From NCBI GenBank assembly GCA_944324655.1, contig CALUXF010000002.1, positions 1 through 64,000 of the forward strand: a stretch of 64,000 nt of DNA. The letters run 5' to 3'. Made by a program: the position numbers and the translations under genes. Below the pieces are notes generated by a model that made no database searches, was not told the DNA's origin, and saw nothing but the letters and a program-made list of their open reading frames with translations. Numbering within the stretch: position 1 is the first letter of the stretch; each line of letters begins with the position of its first letter. Source of the stretch: Candidatus Avelusimicrobium aviculae. Lineage in GTDB: Bacteria; Elusimicrobiota; Elusimicrobia; Elusimicrobiales; Elusimicrobiaceae. Of the stretch, positions 39,695-53,270 are shown piece after piece.

Positions 39695-40846
39695 ATGAAG
39701 AAAATTACTTTATGTTTAACCTTTATTTTAAGTGCATGTTGCGCTTTTTGTGCCACCGGCCCAGGCGGAGGGAAGAAAGCGCTTCGCCGTTTAGTAAAGG
39801 AGGCTTCTTCCTCCTCTTCCAAAACTGCCGCTAACGCCGAGAAAATCCTGTCAAACCTGAACCGGGGAACTCAGGGCCTGTATTCCACCAGCACTTACCG
39901 CCACTTGGGGCAAAAGCTGGAAGTGGTTATGTCCGCCTCTCCTTTTAAAAAATTGTTAAACCGTCACCAGGCTTACCAACATGAAATTAACGCCATGACG
40001 GAAATACTCCCCCGCGTGATGGCCTTACAGGCAGACCCGAAACCCTCCGAGGTGGCTTGGGCAGAATTGTTAATCAAAGACCAAGTAATTAACCAAACCT
40101 TATCCAGAACGTTGCTTAAACTTTTGGAAAATGAAGAGTATGCCCAATTGTCCAAAGAAATTTCAGATTACTACGCCATTCCGCTTGACCGGGATCTGGA
40201 AAGCTTGTCTAAACAAGATTTGCGTGAATTTGTGGTAAACAGCGCGTTAAATTACGCAATCAGCCACCCGCATAAACCCAATTTGCCGCTGCGCGAATTG
40301 TTGAAATCTTGGAAAGTATCCCATCGCACGAAAGAACATCTGCGCAGATTTTTAGCTATACCGGAACTTTTATACAATAATCCGGAAGAATTCAAAAAAT
40401 TTACCCGAGACGCATATAACCAACATCAAAAAGGCATGCAGCAATCTATTAACGCCCCAGAAGTGCAGGCTACTATCAGCGCCTATAATTTAACCTTAGA
40501 AGACCTGCGCGCGTTTGTGGCTAAAAACCACCGCCAGCCTATGTGGAACGCCCCCATTAAAGAACGGCGTTTATACAACACCCTGCAGCTTATTTTAACG
40601 CGCAATGTTACCAATACCTTTTTGGAAACAGAAACCATTAAACGCCAAATACGTGATTTACTGGCAAAATATCCTAACCGCTCTTACTATGATTTTTTAG
40701 AAGACTTTAAAGCCTTCCGCGAAAAACACCAAAGGCTGCCGCAATCCGTGCAGGAGCGCCCGTCCGCCAGCCTGCACGAACGCATCTTGTATGATGAAAT
40801 GGTACGTTATATGGTAGACGGCAAACTCACCTTACCCCTGAAATAA
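39695..40846 (+). CDS. Secreted protein with an internal duplication, unknown
   Basis: 383-residue protein with a signal peptide (about 1-20, Cys-rich: SACCAFCAT). The mature part is charged and mostly helical. Two segments align: residues 268-301 (LEDLRAFVAKNHRQP, then ERRLYNTL) and 335-370 (LEDFKAFREKHQRLP, then ERILYDEM). A weaker copy may lie near 176-200 (LREFVVNSALNYAISHPHKPN). The pattern LED-x-[RK]-AF-x2-K-x2-R-x-P is not one I can name. Preceded by a possible operator and a -10 element, followed by a terminator, so it is a single-gene unit. No function assigned. Confidence 0.75.
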   Translation: MKKITLCLTFILSACCAFCATGPGGGKKALRRLVKEASSSSSKTAANAEKILSNLNRGTQGLYSTSTYRHLGQKLEVVMSASPFKKLLNRHQAYQHEINAMTEILPRVMALQADPKPSEVAWAELLIKDQVINQTLSRTLLKLLENEEYAQLSKEISDYYAIPLDRDLESLSKQDLREFVVNSALNYAISHPHKPNLPLRELLKSWKVSHRTKEHLRRFLAIPELLYNNPEEFKKFTRDAYNQHQKGMQQSINAPEVQATISAYNLTLEDLRAFVAKNHRQPMWNAPIKERRLYNTLQLILTRNVTNTFLETETIKRQIRDLLAKYPNRSYYDFLEDFKAFREKHQRLPQSVQERPSASLHERILYDEMVRYMVDGKLTLPLK

Positions 40847-42347: not shown

Positions 42348-44399
42348 ATGAAGAAAACCATTGGCAAAACTTTTTTAATCATATGTATTTGCGCGCTGCT
42401 TCTCTTTTTGCTTCTGCCGTTTTTAGAAACGCAAGAAACTGCCGGCGGGCCGGGTAAAAAGGCTTCCCCGCAGATTTTTACCTCCAACCCGTTAACAGAG
42501 CTTGTAAACCGCATAGCTTCTATATTTCAAAGCAAACAGAAGCGCCTGGCTAAAGCCCGGGGGAAAATACAAACTTCCCCCGAGGATTTAAACGAACTGT
42601 ATGCCGACGTCCCGCCCGAAATCGCCACCCGCTACGCCGCAGAAAGCTCGGAAGAAGGGGCTTCTTCCCAAACCACTTTGTTAAGACCCTCCAATTTTGA
42701 TTATGGAGACGCCGCCCTGCAAAACGACGACGGAGACTGGGTACTTGTGCGCCAAACCGCCCCTCAGGCTAACGCAAAAGGCATATACGAGATAAACACG
42801 ACCGATACCGCCTATGACCGCTATGTTCGCCAGGAACGGGCCGCCCGTTTTACACCGGGGCTAGACGCCCCCGCCCGCCCGGCGGATTCCGCGCTGGCGC
42901 GGCTTTTGGCACCCATTAAAAATTTGCTTGGAAAGAAACCGGCTTCAGAAACCGTTCAAACAAATCTTTCGGCGCGCCCGGTGGCCTCTTCCCAGGGATT
43001 AGGTGGAAACCAAGGGAAAACCCCTTCTTCCACCCGTACCGCCGCGGCTCCCGCCATGCCTAGTTATACCGTGGCTTCTTTGCCCAGAACAGGCGCAAGA
43101 ACCCCGGCCGCATCCACCGGGACGGAAACGGCTACCGTCTACTCCGGCGGGGATTTGTTTAACCCCATGCTGGCCATCACCCGCACAAGCGAGTGGATTA
43201 TAAATAACCAGGATGAAGACGCCACGGATGAAGAAAAGAAAAACAATCAGCAAAAATTGGCGGCAATCATCTCTCGGACAAAAGAAAACCTTTCTAACAG
43301 ATTAACCCGCCAAGTACGGGAAGAAGCCGGCAACGCCCCCGCGCCGGACCGGCTTCCTACCACGATTGGCTGCAAAGGGGAGAGTGACTCTTTCTACGCA
43401 GAAGATCTTACCCTCTGTGGCACGATTCCTTCCATTTCGCAGGATGCCAGCGCCTGGATGAGCCCGGAAGAACAAGAAAAGCAAAACCAACAAGGCAGAC
43501 AAAAACTGGTGGAAAAACTGAATTTACCGGCCGGGCATCCGGCCTTGCCGGAAGTAAACGTGATGGTTGTTTTGGGTAAAACAAAAAATATGCGTCCCCC
43601 GGACATGGAAGACGATACGGAAGACATGCCGGAACAGAAGCAAGCCAAGGAAGCCATATCCCGCATCTACGAGCTGATGCTGGAAAAACAAAACTGCGCA
43701 AACGAAGAGTGTTATTGGATCCCCAATCAGCTGCAGCAATATCCCAACGTGCGCGAAACTGTTATTTCCGCCGGTTTAAACTCCGTAGAGGATCCGTTAA
43801 ACTTATATAGTCAATGGGTGCCGGAACTGGAAAAAAGGTTGCTGGATGACACCCAAGACGATGAATCCGGCGAACGTTTTATAATTATGCAAGAGGCTTT
43901 ATCTAAAAACGCCCCGGCGTATATTCCCATAACACGCGCGCAAATGGAAGAGCTTAACCGCCGCAACGATGACCGCAAATTATTAAACCCGCAAACACGG
44001 CAGGAGCACATTATCTTTTACGTGCCGGACCCCCAAAACGCCCGTGACATGACAGACGTGTTTAAAGAACATCCGGCTTTTTTGGTATGGGGTAAAGACG
44101 GCAAAGTGTTTGACCGCAGCGCCAAATTAGACACCGCCGCCCGGGCCGACATCTTACAAAATGATTTAACCGAACGCGCCAAAGACATGGCTGCATTCGC
44201 CCAAGGGGTTATACAGGAACTGTATAGGGAAAACTTAATTGATTCTTCCCGCCGCAAAACCCAAAAAATAAGCAACATGACAGCAAGCCAAGCCACGCAA
44301 GAATTACAAAGAAACATACCGGAGGGGAAAAAATCCTCCGGCAATAAAATAACAAACAGCAAAATCCCCGGGCTTCAGTTTAAAGAATACAAACCATAA
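42348..44399 (+). CDS. Membrane-anchored protein of unknown function
   Basis: 683-residue protein with one N-terminal helix (about 7-27) and a long exported part. Residues about 35-260 are low-complexity, rich in Ala, Pro, Ser and Thr (ARPVASSQGLGGNQGKTPSS). Residues about 275-680 are charged, with motifs such as SEWIINNQDEDATDEEKKNNQ, IGCKGESDSF and EHIIFYVPDPQNARDM, and a few paired cysteines (CKGESDSFYAEDLTLC; NCANEEC). No known domain is recognised. It lies between the HtrA-like protease gene and a terminator. Confidence 0.75.
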   Translation: MKKTIGKTFLIICICALLLFLLLPFLETQETAGGPGKKASPQIFTSNPLTELVNRIASIFQSKQKRLAKARGKIQTSPEDLNELYADVPPEIATRYAAESSEEGASSQTTLLRPSNFDYGDAALQNDDGDWVLVRQTAPQANAKGIYEINTTDTAYDRYVRQERAARFTPGLDAPARPADSALARLLAPIKNLLGKKPASETVQTNLSARPVASSQGLGGNQGKTPSSTRTAAAPAMPSYTVASLPRTGARTPAASTGTETATVYSGGDLFNPMLAITRTSEWIINNQDEDATDEEKKNNQQKLAAIISRTKENLSNRLTRQVREEAGNAPAPDRLPTTIGCKGESDSFYAEDLTLCGTIPSISQDASAWMSPEEQEKQNQQGRQKLVEKLNLPAGHPALPEVNVMVVLGKTKNMRPPDMEDDTEDMPEQKQAKEAISRIYELMLEKQNCANEECYWIPNQLQQYPNVRETVISAGLNSVEDPLNLYSQWVPELEKRLLDDTQDDESGERFIIMQEALSKNAPAYIPITRAQMEELNRRNDDRKLLNPQTRQEHIIFYVPDPQNARDMTDVFKEHPAFLVWGKDGKVFDRSAKLDTAARADILQNDLTERAKDMAAFAQGVIQELYRENLIDSSRRKTQKISNMTASQATQELQRNIPEGKKSSGNKITNSKIPGLQFKEYKP

Positions 44400-44404
44400 T
44401 ATAC

Positions 44405-44430
44405 AGGCCGCTGGAAACAGCGGCCTTTTT
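44405..44430 (+). terminator. Terminator after the 683-aa protein gene
   Basis: A 9-bp stem AGGCCGCTG / CAGCGGCCT closed by a GAAA tetraloop and followed by T5. Confidence 0.92.
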
Positions 44431-44469
44431 ATGTAAAAAATATATTTCCCATTTCATTCCAAAAACGGG

Positions 44470-44475
44470 TATAAT
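44470..44475 (+). promoter_or_regulatory. -10 element of the envelope operon
   Basis: A perfect TATAAT predicts a leader of about 43 bases with AAGGAG (44512-44517) before ATG 44525. A TAGACT at 44492-44497 could be a second -10. Confidence 0.55.
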
Positions 44476-44524: not shown

Positions 44525-45079
44525 ATGAAAAAACTAATTCCCGTTTTAGCCGTTTTATGCGTTGTGGCGTTTGCCGGCGCGTGCCGCCATACCGAAGAAC
44601 CTTATAACCGCTCCGACTATAAAAAAGAATACGAGCGTCTCTTCCGCCGCAATGTTTTTGCCCAATGCGAGAATATGGGCACTTTCTATGCTACCTATTG
44701 TTTGGCCCGGCTTGACCAAAAACCCGCCAATAACGACCCGCGCTATAAAGTGACGTTTCTGCGCGGTCCGTTAAAAGGGAAAACCGTTTGGACTACCAAA
44801 GTAATCACCAAAACAATCCCGGTAGACGCCGGACCCTTGCCCAAAGGCATGGTGGTGTTGCGCAATTACGACAACCCCCGCCAAGCCTATGACGCGGACC
44901 ATATAGACCGCTGGCACCTGGGCGTTGTTCATGACACCCGCAATATAGACAAAGGCAATATTGAGCTGGAATTTCCCCGCGACGCCAACGACTTTATGGC
45001 CGCGCGCGAAAGTATTTATTTGCACAACATCCGCTATGTGGTTAAACCGGAAGTAAAAGATATACGTGTTTGGCTGTAA
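44525..45079 (+). CDS. Putative lipoprotein, unknown
   Basis: 184-residue protein with a signal peptide and a likely lipobox (FAGAC, C20). The mature part has KVTFLRGPLKGKTVWTTKVITKTIPVD and a beta-rich middle that could bind a ligand or a partner. Two further cysteines lie in QCENMGTFYATYC. No family recognised. First gene of a run of six reading into the barrel, HAMP, TolC-like, patatin and TPR genes. Confidence 0.72.
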   Translation: MKKLIPVLAVLCVVAFAGACRHTEEPYNRSDYKKEYERLFRRNVFAQCENMGTFYATYCLARLDQKPANNDPRYKVTFLRGPLKGKTVWTTKVITKTIPVDAGPLPKGMVVLRNYDNPRQAYDADHIDRWHLGVVHDTRNIDKGNIELEFPRDANDFMAARESIYLHNIRYVVKPEVKDIRVWL

Positions 45080-45112
45080 GTAGTATAAATCCAGAAACAC
45101 AGGAGCGCTAAC

Positions 45113-45853
45113 GTGAAACTTAAACAAGCTTTTTTTCTTACTGTATTAACCGTTTTTCCCTTAGGAGCATGGGCCGCGGAAGGAGATCCCATCACCACGG
45201 AAACCATGCTTTTGGACGTCCCCACCGCGCAAGTGCTGGACCGCTACCAGGCCTCTTTCCTAACCCGGGCTTATTCCCATGGCTCGCTTATGGAAACCAT
45301 AGAATTTGGCGTATTTCCCCGGATTAATTTAGGGGTTTCTTTTTCGGCGCATGAACTGGTGGGGAACTCGTCTTCTGTAAAAGTGTTGTCTCCCGATTTC
45401 CAGGCAAAATGGAAATTGTTTGACGGCGATTTATACCTTCCGGCTATCGCCATCGGCTATGACGGGCGCCGCTATGGGTACGGCTATAAAGACCATCTCT
45501 ATACTTACCCCATAGATAAAAGTAAAGAATATATGGATAACCGCAAAGGCGGCTACATTGCCATGTCCCGCGAGATTATTATCCCCGGGTTAGACGCTTC
45601 CGCCGGGTTGAACTTTTCAGATTTTGACTGGGAAGAACTGTATTTCTTTACCGGTATGTCTTATGTGTTTAAAGACGCCATCGGTTTAGTGGCGGAGTGG
45701 GATAATATCCGCAATATCCGCGATTCCCGCTTCAACGCCGCGCTGCGGTTCTATTTACACCCTTCCCTTTCGCTTGACGCGGCCGTGCGCCGTATAGGCC
45801 GCGGAGATGAGGCCGAACGTATTATACAAATCCGTTACGTCGGCAATTTTTAG
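45113..45853 (+). CDS. Outer-membrane barrel-like protein (YjbH-like)
   Basis: 246-residue protein with a signal peptide (about 1-21, GAWAAEG) and alternating hydrophobic strands ending in a C-terminal Phe (RYVGNF), as outer-membrane barrels do. Segments such as RINLGVSFSAHELVG, SPDFQAKWKLFDGDLYLPAIAIGY and AALRFYLHPSLSLDAAVRRIG resemble YjbH-type proteins linked to exopolysaccharide export. The family assignment is tentative. It lies 33 bases after the lipoprotein gene. Confidence 0.65.
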   Translation: MKLKQAFFLTVLTVFPLGAWAAEGDPITTETMLLDVPTAQVLDRYQASFLTRAYSHGSLMETIEFGVFPRINLGVSFSAHELVGNSSSVKVLSPDFQAKWKLFDGDLYLPAIAIGYDGRRYGYGYKDHLYTYPIDKSKEYMDNRKGGYIAMSREIIIPGLDASAGLNFSDFDWEELYFFTGMSYVFKDAIGLVAEWDNIRNIRDSRFNAALRFYLHPSLSLDAAVRRIGRGDEAERIIQIRYVGNF

Positions 45854-45931
45854 GGCCGTTTTTCATTTGCGTACGGCTCCGCGGTTCCTGAAAAGGGAGG
45901 CAAACGGGGCCGTTGTTATTTAAGAGGTTTT

Positions 45932-46399
45932 ATGACAGATAAATCTACCCCGGCACCCGCGCAAAACGCGGCGCCCCAGTTTAAACGCCGAACGATTTTT
46001 ATTAAAAAATCGCTCCAGCTGCGTTACATGCTGATGATAATTTTCAGCGTATTAATCGGGCTGGGCATCATGGCTTTTGAGTTAACCGTTACGCTGGATG
46101 AAATTTTTGACCGTTACCCGGTACTGGTGCAGCCTTTATACGAAAATATACTTCCTATAATGACGTCTTTCGCTTACAAAATATCCCTATACGTATTATG
46201 TGTGGTGGTTATATCCGCTTTGGTTTCTCATAAAATGGCCGGGCCGGTGTACCGGTTTGAACAGGTGTGCAAGGCCATTGCCAAAGGGGATTATTCCCAG
46301 CGGGTTCACCTGCGCAAAGGGGACCAGCTGATGGAACTGCAAGACGAGTTTAACAACATGATGGATAAAATAGAATCCGACATGAAAAATAAAAAATAA
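45932..46399 (+). CDS. Stand-alone HAMP membrane protein
   Basis: 155-residue protein with two membrane helices (about 30-52 and 75-95), a short periplasmic loop, and one cytoplasmic HAMP domain (about 95-150; MAGPVYRFEQVCKAIAKGDYSQRVHL...FNNMMDKIES). No kinase, cyclase or methyl-accepting domain follows. The N-terminal RRTIFIKKSLQLRY block recurs in small HAMP proteins of other bacteria. It might pass a periplasmic signal to a partner, unidentified here. Eight bases upstream of the TolC-like gene. Confidence 0.82.
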   Translation: MTDKSTPAPAQNAAPQFKRRTIFIKKSLQLRYMLMIIFSVLIGLGIMAFELTVTLDEIFDRYPVLVQPLYENILPIMTSFAYKISLYVLCVVVISALVSHKMAGPVYRFEQVCKAIAKGDYSQRVHLRKGDQLMELQDEFNNMMDKIESDMKNKK

Positions 46400-46407
46400 G
46401 GGGGCCT

Positions 46408-47718
46408 ATGAAAAAACTTTTTATGTTGCTGCTGGCACTATGTTTAACGCAGGCAGTTTTTGCCCAAAAAGAATACGGCATTAAATTTTCCAGCCTTATT
46501 AACGACGACCTAACCCTGGAAAACGCCATCCGCTTAGGGCTGGAAAATAATTCGGACTTTTTAGCCGCACGGCAAGAAATTACCATTGCCGAGCAAAAAG
46601 TAGCCGAGGCTAAATTTATGTATTTGCCTCAAATTTCTTTGCAAGGCACCGCCACTTGGTTTAATTTAGATTATCCCATGGTATTGCCGGAAGCCGTTGG
46701 GAACCGTTTTTTAATCAGCGACGACCTGCTAAAGCTGACGGAAGACTCTATAAAGAACCAATTCTACGGCGTCGGAGTAACCGCCACGCAGTATTTATAT
46801 TCCGGCGGCCGCATTTCCAGCACGCTCAAAATGGCCAAAGCCAATTTAAAACAAGCCCAAAGCAAATATGACACGGTAAAAAACGCCGTCGTATTAAATA
46901 TTAAAAAAGCTTTTTTTAATTTGCTTTACGCCCAGGAACACACCAAATTAACCGAACAAACCGCCCAACAAGCGCAAAGTTTTTATAATGCCTCCACACT
47001 AAACGCGTGGGAAAAAGTACAGGCCCGGGCAAAGCTTGCTTCTTTGCTGGGGGCGCGCAACGGGGCTGTTAAAGAATTAAAAGACGCCGAGCTGGCTATG
47101 CTGGTAGCCCTAAACAAAGAACTCAACACCCATGTAAAAGTGGTGGGAAATTTTAAACCCGTAAAGACGGATTTGGACTTGCCTCATTTAAATTTGTGGT
47201 CTATGGAATTTAGACCGGAGCTTAAATCCGCCATTTACGCCTTGGAACTGGACAGTTTATCTATTGACTTGGCATTATCCCGCCGCTATCCGGATATTAT
47301 TTTAACCGGCAGTTATGAACAATTGGGTTATGATAATTTGGACTCCGTAAACCGCCAAATATCATTGGCCATGCGCTTGCCGCTGTCTTATAATTTGGCT
47401 ACGCAATCAGCCCAAAAAAAGGCGGAACAGACAAAAAGCACCCTGCGCCGGGCAGCCATAGAAGACAAAATACACGTACAAGTAGCCCGAGCTCATGCGG
47501 ATATGCTTTTTTGGCAGACGGAAGTACTGCAAAGACAGGAAGCGTTTAATGAAATTTCCAAACTCTTTTCCCAAGCGCAAAAAACACCTAAATACGGAAC
47601 GGCCCCCCTGGAAGCGTTAAGCGCTTATTTACAAGCCGGTAGCGACTACTACTGCGCCATCCGCGACAACTTAACGGCCAAGGCGGAATTGGAATGGGCC
47701 ATTGGACGGGATTTATAA
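46408..47718 (+). CDS. TolC-family outer-membrane efflux protein
   Basis: 436-residue exported protein (signal peptide about 1-19, VFAQK). The fold has two similar halves: LTLENAIRLGLENNSDFLAARQEITIAEQKVAEAKFMYLPQISL opens the first, and MEFRPELKSAIYALELDSL opens the second. These are long helical hairpins with short barrel strands (YLYSGGRISSTLKMA). Trimers form a channel through the outer membrane. No ABC or RND pump or adaptor gene is next to it, so it may use partners elsewhere. One base separates it from the patatin gene. Confidence 0.88.
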   Translation: MKKLFMLLLALCLTQAVFAQKEYGIKFSSLINDDLTLENAIRLGLENNSDFLAARQEITIAEQKVAEAKFMYLPQISLQGTATWFNLDYPMVLPEAVGNRFLISDDLLKLTEDSIKNQFYGVGVTATQYLYSGGRISSTLKMAKANLKQAQSKYDTVKNAVVLNIKKAFFNLLYAQEHTKLTEQTAQQAQSFYNASTLNAWEKVQARAKLASLLGARNGAVKELKDAELAMLVALNKELNTHVKVVGNFKPVKTDLDLPHLNLWSMEFRPELKSAIYALELDSLSIDLALSRRYPDIILTGSYEQLGYDNLDSVNRQISLAMRLPLSYNLATQSAQKKAEQTKSTLRRAAIEDKIHVQVARAHADMLFWQTEVLQRQEAFNEISKLFSQAQKTPKYGTAPLEALSAYLQAGSDYYCAIRDNLTAKAELEWAIGRDL

Positions 47719-47719
47719 T

Positions 47720-48682
47720 ATGCGCAAAGCTTTTCTAATCTGCTTAACAACCGCTGTGCTGGCCCTGCTGCCGGCAGCGGCTGTTTACGGACTGGGAAGG
47801 CAAACGGATGATGAAATCCTGCGGGATTTTTTGTGGGAAGAATTTACCCAGCTGCCTAAAAACAAACGCCCTACGGTAGGGTTGGCGCTTTCCGCCGGAG
47901 GGGTGCGCGGTTTTGCCCACGTGGGCGTGTTGGAAGTGTTAGACAACGCCGGCGTACCCATTGATATGATGACCGGAACTTCTATGGGTTCTGTGGTAGG
48001 CTCCCTATACAGCGCGGGGCTGCCCGTATCCAAACTATGGGAAATAAGCCATCACATGACAATGGAAAAAATCACCCCGGATTTTAACGTAGGCGGACTC
48101 TTGCGCTTTTTGCTAGCAAAGAAATTACCGTCTTCCAGCAATCTGCAAAAATTTTTTAACGAGCAAATTGGGGAAATGCGTTTTGAGGATTTGCAAATTC
48201 CTTTTTCCTGCGCGGCCATGGACGTAAAAACCGGGGAACGCGTTTTATTCAATTCCGGGCCGCTTTCTATCGCGGTGCGCGCCAGCATGAATTTACCCGG
48301 CGTATTTGAGCCGGTGGAATACCGCCACCGCCATTTGGTGGACGGGGCGGTGGTAGACTACCTGCCCACGGAAACTTTGCGCAAAATGGGAGCCCAATAC
48401 GTTATAGCCTCTGTCACCCCGCCGGACTTCTCTTCCCAAACACCTCGCACCATTGCGGAATACTTCCTGCGGGTAGGAGACGTGCGCGGGGCGGCCATGA
48501 TTGAGGAATCCTCTAAAAAAGCAAATTTTGTCATTACCAACCGGGTGTTAGATATTTCCACCTTGGAGCTAGACAAACTGCCCAAAGCGGGAGAAGAGGG
48601 CATACTTTCCGCCACCAAAAGTCTGGCGGATTTGCAAGAAGATATGCTTCTTAAAATGGGACATTATGTATACCAACCGTAA
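47720..48682 (+). CDS. Exported patatin-like phospholipase
   Basis: 320-residue serine hydrolase of the patatin/RssA group with a signal peptide (about 1-24). The catalytic dyad is S88 (GTSMGS) and D208 (LVDGAVVDYLP), and the oxyanion loop is SAGGVRGFAHVG. It lacks a fused barrel, unlike the PlpD type. Acting on periplasmic or outer-membrane phospholipid is likely. I use ATG 47720, one base past the TolC-like stop; the frame opens at TTG 47702. Confidence 0.88.
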   Translation: MRKAFLICLTTAVLALLPAAAVYGLGRQTDDEILRDFLWEEFTQLPKNKRPTVGLALSAGGVRGFAHVGVLEVLDNAGVPIDMMTGTSMGSVVGSLYSAGLPVSKLWEISHHMTMEKITPDFNVGGLLRFLLAKKLPSSSNLQKFFNEQIGEMRFEDLQIPFSCAAMDVKTGERVLFNSGPLSIAVRASMNLPGVFEPVEYRHRHLVDGAVVDYLPTETLRKMGAQYVIASVTPPDFSSQTPRTIAEYFLRVGDVRGAAMIEESSKKANFVITNRVLDISTLELDKLPKAGEEGILSATKSLADLQEDMLLKMGHYVYQP

Positions 48683-49679
48683 TTTTTTACTAACGCTTTT
48701 AAGCGCATGTTTTCTAGCCGCCTGCGCCGGCCAGCCCGGCCTGCTGGGGTTAGACTTCGCCACCCGCCATGACCGCAAAGAATATGTACAAGCTCGTGAT
48801 TTATTTAATGAAGGCAAATACCAAGAAGCCATTACCGAATTAAGCGCCTACATTTATAAAACCAAAAACGTTAAACGCCGCGAAGTGCGCGCCTACCGCC
48901 TGCTGGGCCAAAGCTATGAACAATTGGGGGATTTAAGCAAGGCGTTGGAAACGTATCAGGAAGCGCTGGAATTTCACCCGGACGACGTGCCTCTGCTGCT
49001 CTCCGCCGCCGCTTTGTATAAACGCACTGGACTGACGGACCGCTCTTTATCTTTATATGAACACGCCCTTTCTTTAGAACCCAATAACCAAAATGTGCTG
49101 GCCGGTGTGGGAGAAATCTATTTAACCACCGGGTATTACGCCAAAGCCCGCTCTTATTATGAACAGCTTTTTAAACTCAACCCGCAGGCGCCGGCGGTCC
49201 ACCGGGCCCGCTACGCCCAAACGTTCTATCAACAAAAAGATTATGCCAACGCTTTTATAAATATTACCATGGCTCTTTCCGAAACGCCTGACAACCCGGA
49301 CTTTTGGCTCCTAAGCGCCAAAGCAAACCGCGGTTTAGGCCGTTTTAATGACGCATTGGCCGATTTGGACACCGCTTTATTATTGTCCCCCCACCGCCCG
49401 GATTTAGAAGCATACCGCGCTTTATGGTTGCACCAGGCCAAACGCTATGCCGAGTCTGACTGGCAGGCCCGCCAAATACTGGATAAACAACCCGGAAATG
49501 AACTGGCTCTTTTTGTCATGGCCATGAACGCCAGCGGCCAAGGCCGGCATGAGCAAGCCAAATCCTTGCTGGAGCAAATACGCCAAGGGGAAAAAGACAC
49601 CTTTATCCGCCGGTTTACTGACAGCCTGTTTGCGGCTCCGGCCATTTCCCTTACGCAACCCTCCGCCAAACCCAACTGA
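48666..49679 (+). CDS. TPR-repeat lipoprotein
   Basis: 337-residue protein with a lipobox (FLAAC, C20) and about seven tetratricopeptide repeats over residues 40-310 (AYRLLGQSYEQLGDLSKALETYQEALEFHPDD and similar). TPR lipoproteins scaffold envelope complexes such as the BAM machine or secretins. The C-terminal tail is short and Pro/Ser-rich. It overlaps the patatin gene by 17 bases and closes the operon. Confidence 0.88.
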   Translation: MYTNRNFLLTLLSACFLAACAGQPGLLGLDFATRHDRKEYVQARDLFNEGKYQEAITELSAYIYKTKNVKRREVRAYRLLGQSYEQLGDLSKALETYQEALEFHPDDVPLLLSAAALYKRTGLTDRSLSLYEHALSLEPNNQNVLAGVGEIYLTTGYYAKARSYYEQLFKLNPQAPAVHRARYAQTFYQQKDYANAFINITMALSETPDNPDFWLLSAKANRGLGRFNDALADLDTALLLSPHRPDLEAYRALWLHQAKRYAESDWQARQILDKQPGNELALFVMAMNASGQGRHEQAKSLLEQIRQGEKDTFIRRFTDSLFAAPAISLTQPSAKPN

Positions 49680-49720
49680 TAAGTAGAATTTTCTTTTAAA
49701 CACATACATCAAAACCCAAA

Positions 49721-49749
49721 AAAACCCCGCCTTTAACGGCGGGGTTTTT
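49721..49749. terminator. Bidirectional terminator
   Basis: CCCCGCC pairs with GGCGGGG around TTTAAC, flanked by A-run and T5. Lies between the convergent TPR and tldE genes. Confidence 0.93.
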
Positions 49750-49775: not shown

Positions 49776-51404
49776 TTACGGCTTAGGCACAAAAGGTTTA
49801 CGGTCCGGGTGTTTGCCCGTAGGAACCAGTTCCACTTCGTCCACCAATAAAGAAGGAACGATGATAGCATGCGCTGGATCTGAATCCTCGGAAAAATTGA
49901 AAATGGTTTCATCATCTCCCGCCGCTAATATATCACGCAAAGAGCGGGATGTGAAATTTTCCAACTTGGCGCCATATACTTGTTCTTTACGCCCGTCTTT
50001 TACATAAACACGCGTAATGTTGGGCAAATCCTGTTTGGCATTGGGCATCATTTCCACAATATAACCGTATTCCAGGTCCAGCTCACGGCAGCGGTCCAAG
50101 AGTTTCTGTTCCAGCTCTTGCTGGGATAAAGGATCCTGGGGCGTAACAAACAAATTGGTTATTCCGGCGCGCGGGCGCTGGCGGTAAGAAACCCGCGCGT
50201 GCCCGTTGCTCTTTTTGCGTCCCTGCGTTAAACTGCGGCTAAAAGGCAAATCCAATAGTTTGCCGTTGCTCACCAAAAGCAGGTTTTCAGCCGGTACGCC
50301 TTCGGCATCAATAGGGGCAAAACCCGCCAGCGAAACCCCCTTATATTCCCTTAACAGGGGTTTGTCTTCCACCGTAAATTGCTGGGCAAACACCCGCTGG
50401 CCTATTTTATCTTTAAACCCGCCGGCGCTAAGGTCCTCCCCCTCCTCTTGAAGCAAAGGCTTGGTGTTAGACACGTTAGACACAAAAAGGGAGTTTATCA
50501 TCTCTTGCGCGGCGGCCGGTTTAAATAAAACAGGCCCTATGTAAGGGGTGGCTTTTTCGGCTGAATAGCCCTCACTGACCCATTTATAAAACGCATTGGC
50601 TTTTTGCAGCAGTTCTTCTTTAGAAGGAAGTTCTTCCAACGTATACATCCACTGCGCCATAGGGCGTTGTTTTATACCGTCTTTATTACGTATTTGGGCT
50701 TGCAAAAAGACGTTCTTCCAAGTGGTGTTTAGGCGCATTTTGCCGCCTTGGCTGTTTACGTACCATAACATGCTAAGCAAAACACGCACGCCGGCGGAAG
50801 CTTCTTCTAAATTCGGATATTTTTTAGCTTCGGCTGACAAAGCTTTTGTTAAATCTTCATAATAGGCGTAATCCAGCTCTTCCCATTGGGGTTGCGGCTC
50901 CAAGAAAGACCCTTGTTTGGCGGGGGCGAAATCGGAAGATTTATCCGCCAGGTTTTTTTGGCGCATAAAGGCCTGTTTTTGGGCAAAAATTTCTACCATT
51001 TCCCGGTATTCCGCATCCGTAATACCCCATAACCCCAGACGCACGGCGTCATATCCGTCGCCTATTTTAAACACCTCGTTGGGGATGTAATAATAATGGC
51101 TGTGTAAAAAGCCGTGGCTGTTTTCTTTTTTATCACCCACCACCATATGCACCCGGCCCATCAGCAGCCAATCGTCCGATACGTCTGTGCTGGATACGGT
51201 CAGTTCCCCCCATAAAGATTCGTAAATTACGCCTTTGGTTTTGGTCAGCCAGTAGGCCGTAAAATACGGGCGGGGAGCATTAGGAATGCGAAGCTGCTTT
51301 TGCGTGCGGGCCAGCTCGTCCTGCATGGCTTTAAAATACACATCGTCCTGCGCCCAGGAAAAAGCGGGAAACAACAAACATAACAAAACAAAGAACTTTC
51401 TCAT
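49776..51404 (-). CDS. tldE: Exported TldE/PmbA-like subunit
   Basis: 542-residue protein of the TldD/PmbA family with a signal peptide (about 1-18, FSWAQ). The HExxxH zinc motif of TldD is absent (the equivalent region reads AAQEMINSLF), as in TldE subunits. The later strands LREYKGVSLAGFAPIDAEGVPAENLLLV and KKSNGHARVS match the family. It overlaps the tldD stop as ATGA, so both subunits are made together and both are exported. Confidence 0.85.
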   Translation of the reverse strand: MRKFFVLLCLLFPAFSWAQDDVYFKAMQDELARTQKQLRIPNAPRPYFTAYWLTKTKGVIYESLWGELTVSSTDVSDDWLLMGRVHMVVGDKKENSHGFLHSHYYYIPNEVFKIGDGYDAVRLGLWGITDAEYREMVEIFAQKQAFMRQKNLADKSSDFAPAKQGSFLEPQPQWEELDYAYYEDLTKALSAEAKKYPNLEEASAGVRVLLSMLWYVNSQGGKMRLNTTWKNVFLQAQIRNKDGIKQRPMAQWMYTLEELPSKEELLQKANAFYKWVSEGYSAEKATPYIGPVLFKPAAAQEMINSLFVSNVSNTKPLLQEEGEDLSAGGFKDKIGQRVFAQQFTVEDKPLLREYKGVSLAGFAPIDAEGVPAENLLLVSNGKLLDLPFSRSLTQGRKKSNGHARVSYRQRPRAGITNLFVTPQDPLSQQELEQKLLDRCRELDLEYGYIVEMMPNAKQDLPNITRVYVKDGRKEQVYGAKLENFTSRSLRDILAAGDDETIFNFSEDSDPAHAIIVPSLLVDEVELVPTGKHPDRKPFVPKP

Positions 51405-53104
51405 TTTGTACCCCCTTTAGAAGAATTTTCTGTATATGGGGGGCGTAAAATGGGAGGCTTGGAGGGATTTTTTTGCACCTTTTCCACCTCCATTTCCGAA
51501 ACTAAAATACTGGGAGACACGGCCGACACCGGCACCCAGCCCGACTCGGCCCCGCAGCTGCCGTTGAACACGGCGTAATCGTCCGCCGCCGCAATGACTT
51601 TGCTAAAACTGGTCAGCGGAGTGCCCACCAAGTCTACCCCGCGCACCATTTCTTTATGCCCGTCCGGATAGATTTTATACACCAACAGCGGGTTTACTTT
51701 AAAAGCCTGCGGGGCGGAGGTTTCCGTCATGGTAAAACCGCCGGAAATGTCTTCAATAATTAAACCGTACGGCTTGCCTTGGCGTTTAATTTCCGCCAAA
51801 AGCCGCTTTTCCAACTCTTCATAAGAAACGGCTGAAACCGGGGTAATCATGGTATTGCCCATACGGGCCACGGCGCGGTTCCCTAAAGACTTGCGGCCAT
51901 GCCCGTTGGAAGCGGGAAACCCTTTAATGGGGCTGGAACCCATGAGGAAATTTTTTAACACGCCCCTTTCTATCAACAGAACGTCTTGGGCGGGGTTTCC
52001 CTCATCATCATATACATAATGCCCGCGCAGCGGCACTCCCTGAAAGTGGGAAAGGAGCGGGTTGTCGCTCACGTTTAAAATGGGGGATACCACTTGTTTA
52101 CCTACCCGGTTGGTAAAAGTCTGCCCAAAAGAATCGCTTTTTTGGCGGTGCCCTTCTAAGCGGTGGCCTAATATTTCATGAAAAAACACCCCACTGGCGC
52201 GGTTTTTTAAAATAACCGGCCCGGTATAGGGTTCCGCCGCCGGGGCGGAAAGCAGACTTTTTAATTCCTGCGCCATACGGGTAAAATCTTCTTTCATTTG
52301 CCGCATAGAAGGGAAATCTTCCATGGTAATGCCGTCATATAATTCATTGCGTTCCAGCACCATTCCTTCCGGCGTTTGCGCGCGGATAACCATGGAGTAG
52401 CGCCCCAAAATACGCGGGGTGCGAAGACGGCTGCCCACACTGTTTACAAAAAAAGTATCTTCCTGCGTGAGAACAAAACTAAAAGAGCTTTTGTCTATAA
52501 AATCATAATCTTTTACCAATGAGGAAAGCGTTTTTAGGCGTTGGGCTATTTCCTGGCGGTCATAGCTTACCGAAGGCTGCGTTTGGCAGAAGAGGGCCTT
52601 TTGCGGAAGGACAAAATCGTCCGAAGTATCCAAACTGGCGGAAGACACCTGTTTATTGCTGATTACATTATTATAATCATCCTGCGCCTTCTCCACCGCT
52701 TCTTGGGTGCCCCGCCATAATACATTACGTAATACTTTTTGGGACTCAGCATCCAGCGGGGCTTCTTTTTCCACTTGGCGGAAATTATTCCAAAAACCTT
52801 TTAATTCGTGGGTGTTATCCGTCTGCACGCTGCCTACGCGCACGTCAAAATCCACCCAGTTGGAGCGGCTGTCCGTATTTTGGCGGATTGCGCCCGCTTG
52901 CGCCGTTATCACCAACTCCTGTATGGACGTTAGCTGATAAGACATATAATACACCGGCGGATTCTGTTTTTTAAGGGTTTTAAAATTGCGCATCAACTCA
53001 TCTGACAAAATAGAAAGGGTAGAGTCTTTCTGCGCATTACACTCTGCCCCTTGGGCCGAAAAGCCGCACACACAAAGCAACAGCAATAAACAAATTTTCT
53101 TCAT
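51401..53104 (-). CDS. tldD: Exported TldD-like zinc metalloprotease
   Basis: 567-residue metallopeptidase of the TldD/PmbA family. A clear signal peptide (about 1-20; LLLLLCVCGFSAQGA) exports it. The zinc motif is H309-E310-x3-H314 (FFHEILGHRLEGH), followed by the family blocks PLLSHFQGVPLRGHYVYDDEG and ASNGHGRKSLGNRA. TldD-TldE heterodimers cleave unfolded peptides. ATG 53104 has GGGGG upstream; the frame opens to 53224, but that extension runs antisense into the tRNA gene and is rejected. Confidence 0.88.
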   Translation of the reverse strand: MKKICLLLLLCVCGFSAQGAECNAQKDSTLSILSDELMRNFKTLKKQNPPVYYMSYQLTSIQELVITAQAGAIRQNTDSRSNWVDFDVRVGSVQTDNTHELKGFWNNFRQVEKEAPLDAESQKVLRNVLWRGTQEAVEKAQDDYNNVISNKQVSSASLDTSDDFVLPQKALFCQTQPSVSYDRQEIAQRLKTLSSLVKDYDFIDKSSFSFVLTQEDTFFVNSVGSRLRTPRILGRYSMVIRAQTPEGMVLERNELYDGITMEDFPSMRQMKEDFTRMAQELKSLLSAPAAEPYTGPVILKNRASGVFFHEILGHRLEGHRQKSDSFGQTFTNRVGKQVVSPILNVSDNPLLSHFQGVPLRGHYVYDDEGNPAQDVLLIERGVLKNFLMGSSPIKGFPASNGHGRKSLGNRAVARMGNTMITPVSAVSYEELEKRLLAEIKRQGKPYGLIIEDISGGFTMTETSAPQAFKVNPLLVYKIYPDGHKEMVRGVDLVGTPLTSFSKVIAAADDYAVFNGSCGAESGWVPVSAVSPSILVSEMEVEKVQKNPSKPPILRPPYTENSSKGGTK

Positions 53105-53197
53105 AAATCCCCCTTTTTTGTATTGTAGCATAATACCCTTGCGGCGTTTTGGTTGGCCTTTGACCTTAAAAATGATAAAATAATTTAAATTTATTGC

Positions 53198-53270
53198 GCC
53201 GAGATAGCTCAACTGGCAGAGCAACGGTTTTGTAAACCGTAGGTTGTGGGTTCGACTCCCATTCTCGGCT
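53198..53270 (+). tRNA. tRNA-Thr (anticodon TGT)
   Basis: A 73-base cloverleaf. Acceptor GCCGAGA pairs perfectly with TCTCGGC. The D arm contains AGCTC-AACTGGCA-GAGC. Anticodon stem ACGGT/ACCGT has loop TTTGTAA with anticodon TGT. The T arm GTGGG-TTCGACT-CCCAT is normal. No CCA is encoded. A terminator follows 11 bases later. Confidence 0.97.

Follow-up and report, generated by a model that had tools for sequence, protein, structure and literature searches.

A conserved TolC-patatin-TPR gene cluster of Elusimicrobiota and its possible role in outer-membrane phospholipid turnover

Introduction

In descriptions of the TolC family, its members serve pumps and secretion machines as exit ducts, and the TolC protein of E. 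coli is encoded apart from its pumps. E. coli TolC also has a lipoprotein partner, YbjP (PMC13082787). On the side of the lipids, exported patatins associated with an outer-membrane protein are represented by the patatin-Omp85 proteins PlpD of Pseudomonas aeruginosa and FplA of Fusobacterium; the patatin domain of PlpD, originally proposed to be secreted, has been located in the periplasm, and deletion of PlpD raises phospholipids, an effect read by its authors in terms of outer-membrane lipid homeostasis (PMC11116518). Phospholipid asymmetry of the outer membrane is the concern of the Mla pathway (MlaA, PldA), whose task is the removal or degradation of misplaced phospholipids.

The present analysis concerns a locus of Candidatus Avelusimicrobium aviculae (Elusimicrobiota; genome size 1.62 Mb) in which a TolC-type protein (D), a patatin (E) and a tetratricopeptide (TPR) protein (F) are encoded side by side; the window, that is, the whole stretch of DNA analysed, comprises the first 64,000 nucleotides of contig CALUXF010000002.1. 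With the outer-membrane factors of tripartite pumps, D shares two OEP repeats and a predicted TolC fold, but it has neither a nearby adaptor or pump gene nor the Y-x-x-G signature at its periplasmic tips. E matches the patatin domain of PlpD, its closest solved relative (2e-54; next match, 3.5e-07), and each is an exported patatin associated with a protein of the outer membrane; unlike PlpD, however, E is a separate protein of 320 residues consisting of the patatin domain alone, no POTRA domain or 16-stranded barrel having been found in it, and the part of its partner barrel would fall to a TolC-type protein together with a TPR protein. The job proposed below for D, E and F is akin to that of the Mla pathway, whereas the proteins differ and 32 of 34 genomes are without MlaA. 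The TolC-YbjP pair resembles the locus in combining a TolC-type protein with an accessory lipoprotein, F carrying a lipobox in the window; F differs in being a TPR protein, not always a lipoprotein, encoded beside its presumed partner D. No literature report joining Elusimicrobia, TolC and patatin was found, and no patatin-TolC-tetratricopeptide operon appears in the titles and abstracts of the literature found.

Organization of the Locus

The claim of the first-pass annotation that six co-directional, tightly packed genes lie between two terminators holds: all six (A to F; Table 1) are on the plus strand and both hairpins are present. From A to E the intergenic gaps are of 33, 78, 8 and 1 bases, and E and F overlap by 17 bases; the start of E is most likely the ATG at 47720, the mechanical open reading frame beginning with the TTG at 47702. 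Lipoboxes (A and F), Sec-type signals (B, D and E) and hydrophobic segments (C), all read from the sequence by eye, agree with the claim that every product is exported or resides in a membrane, and family scans bear out the TolC-like, patatin and TPR labels, returning OEP for D, patatin for E and TPR for F.

Table 1. Features of the locus; positions are those of the window.
Feature	Position	Strand	Remarks
Terminator-like hairpin	44405..44426	+	Ends upstream gene; 9 pairs, 7 G-C, then T run
Promoter-like site before gene A	44446..44475	+	TTCCCA-18-TATAAT, 10/12; consensus match only
A: lipoprotein without family	44525..45079	+	184 aa; no Pfam family; lipobox
B: predicted 12-stranded outer-membrane barrel	45113..45853	+	246 aa; GTG start; Sec-type signal
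C: putative stand-alone HAMP protein	45932..46399	+	155 aa; two hydrophobic segments; class-level extension
D: TolC-fold channel protein, core	46408..47718	+	436 aa; OEP 2.5e-35; Sec-type signal
E: exported patatin-type phospholipase (predicted), core	47720..48682	+	320 aa; Patatin 1e-30; Sec-type signal
F: TPR protein with lipobox, core	48666..49679	+	337 aa; TPR families
Symmetrical terminator-like hairpin	49720..49749	.	12 pairs; between F and convergent gene at 49776

The genes flanking the locus in the window deserve a brief description. On the 3' side of F, two convergent TldD/PmbA-like genes occupy 49776-53224 on the minus strand. TldD/PmbA is a normally cytosolic protease family in which Sec-type signals are unusual; both products apparently begin with such signal sequences, and the one encoded at 51401-53224 retains an HExxxH-type motif. 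In Elusimicrobiaceae loci, too, the pair comes after F; it is fast-diverging. The genes at 42348-44399 and 39695-40846 encode exported or membrane-anchored proteins without family, conserved in position at just 24-31% identity in most of the genus.

Conservation of the Gene Order in Elusimicrobiota

Whole-genome searches covered Elusimicrobiota; gene order at the level of the order was mapped by tblastn on the loci of relatives, and families and genera are given anonymous labels (f1, f2 and so on; g1 and so on), f1 being equated with Elusimicrobiaceae. All g1 loci long enough to show the six genes have them in the order and orientation A-B-C-D-E-F, and the median gaps in f1 are of -4 (C-D), 9 (D-E) and -17 (E-F) bases. 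In f2, the second family of the order, and in related families of the class the gene order is B-[pfkA]-C-D-E-F, flanked in f2 by dnaE upstream and dapF-dapA downstream (annotations made by eye, pfkA and the dap genes being identified from sequence); some f2 loci (e.g. L064, L087) are without D or E within the stretch. Since D-E-F alone is kept together elsewhere in the phylum, amid arginine and lysine biosynthesis genes, these three genes are taken as the core. A search of genome contigs for close relatives of D returned Elusimicrobia and uncultured records.

The surroundings of the core in the other classes are an odd home for envelope genes: argD-argG-argH stand upstream of D-E-F (e.g. L241, L250, L251, L254), argH lies immediately 5' of D in the other tested lineages (assigned by family scan in three loci and inferred from size in the others), and at one locus (L254) the downstream genes are, by Pfam, lysA-dapF-dapA.

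As counted from best-hit coordinates, 45 of the 50 genomes searched (48 genera) carry the orthologues of D and E next to each other and in the same orientation on one contig; both are missing from four genomes (G101, G132, G142, G174), and a fifth (G266) has a weaker E-like protein only. Because the flanks differ between the two families of the order (PmbA/TldD-like genes in f1, dapF-dapA in f2) and C-D-E-F stays together, the four genes behave as a unit; in other lineages D-E-F is flanked by arg and lys genes. The neighbourhood check for scattering found C-D-E-F together within the taxonomic order and D-E-F together across the phylum, an arrangement that is not chance. It could be argued that D, E and F share a transcript and not a function, their linkage being a frozen gene order like that of the biosynthesis genes around them; indeed, the position of D-E-F inside arg and lys/dap clusters in other classes means that unrelated genes do co-localise there. 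This explanation is nevertheless improbable, given that the internal order of D-E-F is constant while the flanks change between lineages and that four of the five genomes without D are without E as well.

Genes A, B, and C

Homologues of gene A occur in g1, g12 and g13, all of family f1, and none was found in the f2 or other-class loci scanned. Gene B is present in 228 of 248 genomes (75 of 76 genera), single-copy in nearly all carriers and retained even in reduced genomes of 0.6-1.0 Mb; in most other classes it lies apart from D-E-F. Its earlier description as YjbH-like could not be maintained, the match being of 13.3 bits against a cut-off of 24 (E = 0.035) over 84 residues of a 658-position model. 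The AlphaFold model of B, built like that of D on an alignment of 20 sequences, has 12 strands and is of moderate confidence (pLDDT 71); in Foldseek the predicted barrel gives a 200-column alignment with KdgM (TMt 0.80), a likeness to the 12-stranded porins of the KdgM/NanC type to be set against an identity of about 10% and the moderate quality of the model. A PDB sequence search with B gave matches only to "Bagel" and "cell surface protein" chains. A C-terminal phenylalanine is typical of outer-membrane proteins, and in B this residue is invariant.

In most classes gene B neighbours accA and fba or pfkA (e.g. L169-L177); this position, together with its retention in reduced genomes, suggests a porin tied to central metabolism. 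pfkA was initially considered its constant neighbour, an idea dropped when B was seen to adjoin accA, and then fba or pfkA, elsewhere. A 669-residue second patatin near B in f8, considered as a PlpD-type Omp85 fusion, turned out to be a cyclic-nucleotide-binding and patatin protein.

Gene C encodes a protein whose HAMP score in Pfam is 24 bits (cut-off, 25); kinase-type models match it in its HAMP part only, and a HAMP core is present, an output domain is not. C was detected in 101 of 101 relative genomes and lies immediately 5' of D in f1, f2, f7, f8 and f10; outside part of the class, the D-E-F locus is without it. Short HAMP proteins distantly related to C precede proteins with GAF and HD domains in f13 (L192, L197, L200), possibly forming with them a two-protein signalling pair; on account of these relatives, short HAMP proteins of the C type are suggested to relay signals to partners.

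That all six genes form one machine, as the first reading of the locus would have it, is very improbable. The fixed order A-B-C-D-E-F throughout g1 and its tight spacing speak in favour of such a machine; against it, B is phylum-wide and located elsewhere in most classes, A is limited to f1, and C is off the D-E-F locus beyond part of the class. On the evidence of gene order, the proposed six-gene device shrinks to a putative three-gene core with one class-level addition, and A (a family-level lipoprotein) and B (a phylum-wide, porin-like barrel) are, as far as their distribution indicates, neighbours outside this core. The history of the locus was likely one in which C was added within the class to an ancient D-E-F core, and B and A joined later.

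Gene D: An Orphan TolC Homologue

Gene D encodes a protein with two OEP stretches (Pfam PF02321), whose AlphaFold model (pLDDT 84) retrieves TolC in Foldseek (5.8e-17, TM about 0.66). A search of the source genome with PF02321 returned, besides D, four other complete TolC homologues, on contigs C1 (adaptor-RND-OMF), C18 (OMF-adaptor-RND), C22 (OMF-adaptor-ABC ATPase-FtsX-type permease) and C10 (TetR-OMF-adaptor, followed by ABC-2-type genes); a fifth, weak match on C22 falls inside an adaptor. An RND search of the same genome agrees with the pump reading for C1 and C18 and gave a third, weak match on C35, the other pump genes being assigned by eye. In the lineages examined, the neighbourhood of D yielded no ABC, RND or adaptor gene, in line with what the first-pass annotation had claimed of the TolC protein; since each of the other four homologues has a complete pump and D has none, D is the sole orphan TolC homologue of the genome. 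The genes of about 400 and 445 codons situated 5' of D in other classes, considered on the basis of length as ABC permeases and an adaptor, were identified by Pfam and NCBIfam as argD, argG and argH, and the idea of a pump at these loci was therefore dropped.

The orthologues of D were also aligned with the four pump-linked paralogues, a comparison in which the alignment of loops between such distant proteins is uncertain. The tip glycine of the Y-x-x-G turn is present at both periplasmic tips in all four paralogues, and D sequences are gapped at this position in 112 of 113 cases at tip 1 and in 111 of 113 at tip 2. The missing motif is compatible with a pump, because replacement of the TolC turn by poly-Ala was tolerated and BesA/BesC functions without the adaptor hairpin (PMC4446572). 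As aligned, the absence of the tip glycine lowers the likelihood that D is coupled to a pump.

These observations bear on the possibility that D is a housekeeping TolC serving pumps encoded elsewhere, with E and F merely co-transcribed. Such a role would have the precedent of E. coli TolC, would suit the most widely conserved TolC homologue among those searched, which D is, and would be eased by the tolerance of the TolC turn to mutation; it is however unlikely, as the other four homologues own an adaptor and a pump, no obvious orphan pump emerges (the weak RND match on C35 aside), the tip glycine is missing from D at both tips, and the constant linkage of D to E and F would be left unexplained.

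Genes E and F and Their Lipid-Handling Context

E is the only patatin of the source genome. Its patatin domain carries the oxyanion loop and the G-x-S-x-G and D-G-G/A motifs, which are conserved; among 104 orthologues, the strict catalytic pattern is broken only by variants of the oxyanion loop and by one or two open reading frames in a wrong frame. On a simple hydrophobicity scale an N-terminal hydrophobic segment is present in 96 of the 104, consistent with export. A plasmid search with E gave patatins only, all below 60% identity. F lies downstream of E in most loci across the phylum; as judged by eye, its signal is a lipobox in the window and in some of the relatives, and of type I in other relatives.

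Of the functions put forward earlier for the locus, PlpD, as the closest solved relative of E, speaks for the removal of lipids or a remodelling of the outer membrane; surface export is conceivable. A specific form of export, in which E would reach the periplasm by Sec and leave through D, assisted by F as a chaperone, to act on extracellular lipids, can be imagined from the adjacency of a channel gene to that of an exported enzyme and from the initial proposal of a secreted PlpD; it appears quite improbable, however, since neither an energy source nor an adaptor is encoded nearby, the PlpD patatin domain was later assigned to the periplasm (PMC11116518), and a folded enzyme of about 30 kDa would be an unlikely passive cargo.

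As for the lipid-transport machinery of the phylum, 30 of 34 genomes gave a match to MlaD and only 2 to MlaA, so that the role of MlaA is apparently vacant in most of the phylum; this vacancy fits a lipid reading of D-E-F without proving it. Both MlaA-bearing genomes (G252 and G256) keep D-E-F. The same two genomes are among the four without an MlaD match, yet are the sole MlaA carriers of the 34, and a swap of lipid-transport systems is possible in them.

A Possible Module for Outer-Membrane Phospholipid Turnover

The explanation that we prefer, tentatively and with somewhat less than even confidence, is that D-E-F, with C as an extension in this locus and B and A alongside, is a phylum-wide envelope module for pump-independent turnover of outer-membrane phospholipids; being conserved side by side in nearly all of the families sampled, without the usual pump, D, E and F would probably form an undescribed lipid-care unit. 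The analysis shows the gene order and its conservation, the catalytic motifs of E, and the predicted TolC fold, orphan status and missing tip signature of D; that the products form a complex, what it acts on, which way it transports and what C contributes are inferred. As to this mechanism, E would be exported to the periplasm and, as does the patatin domain of PlpD, would hydrolyse glycerophospholipids accessible from the periplasmic face of the outer membrane. D would be a TolC-type trimer in the outer membrane that has lost the periplasmic adaptor-docking tip signature and, owing to this loss, is proposed to work without an ABC or RND pump; it may act as an outer-membrane anchor of E, as a passive exit for the released fatty acids or lysolipids, or as both. 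F, the TPR protein, would bridge E to D, and C may link the complex across the inner membrane or signal its state. Against the lipid module stand the genomes without D and E (e.g. G101, G142), which live without it, the embedding of D-E-F among unrelated amino-acid biosynthesis genes in other classes, the tolerance of the TolC turn to mutation, and the retention of D-E-F in both genomes with MlaA.

A more pointed version of the proposal, in which D-E-F is a lipid-disposal duct whose TolC trimer, having dropped the adaptor interface, takes the lipid products from a docked patatin and replaces the missing MlaA in most of the phylum, is in our estimate rather unlikely. The pump-independent module as a whole, if it proves true, would represent a different use of the TolC fold, coupled to the turnover of outer-membrane lipids, and it offers a candidate answer to how misplaced outer-membrane phospholipids may be handled in bacteria that have MlaD and are mostly without MlaA.
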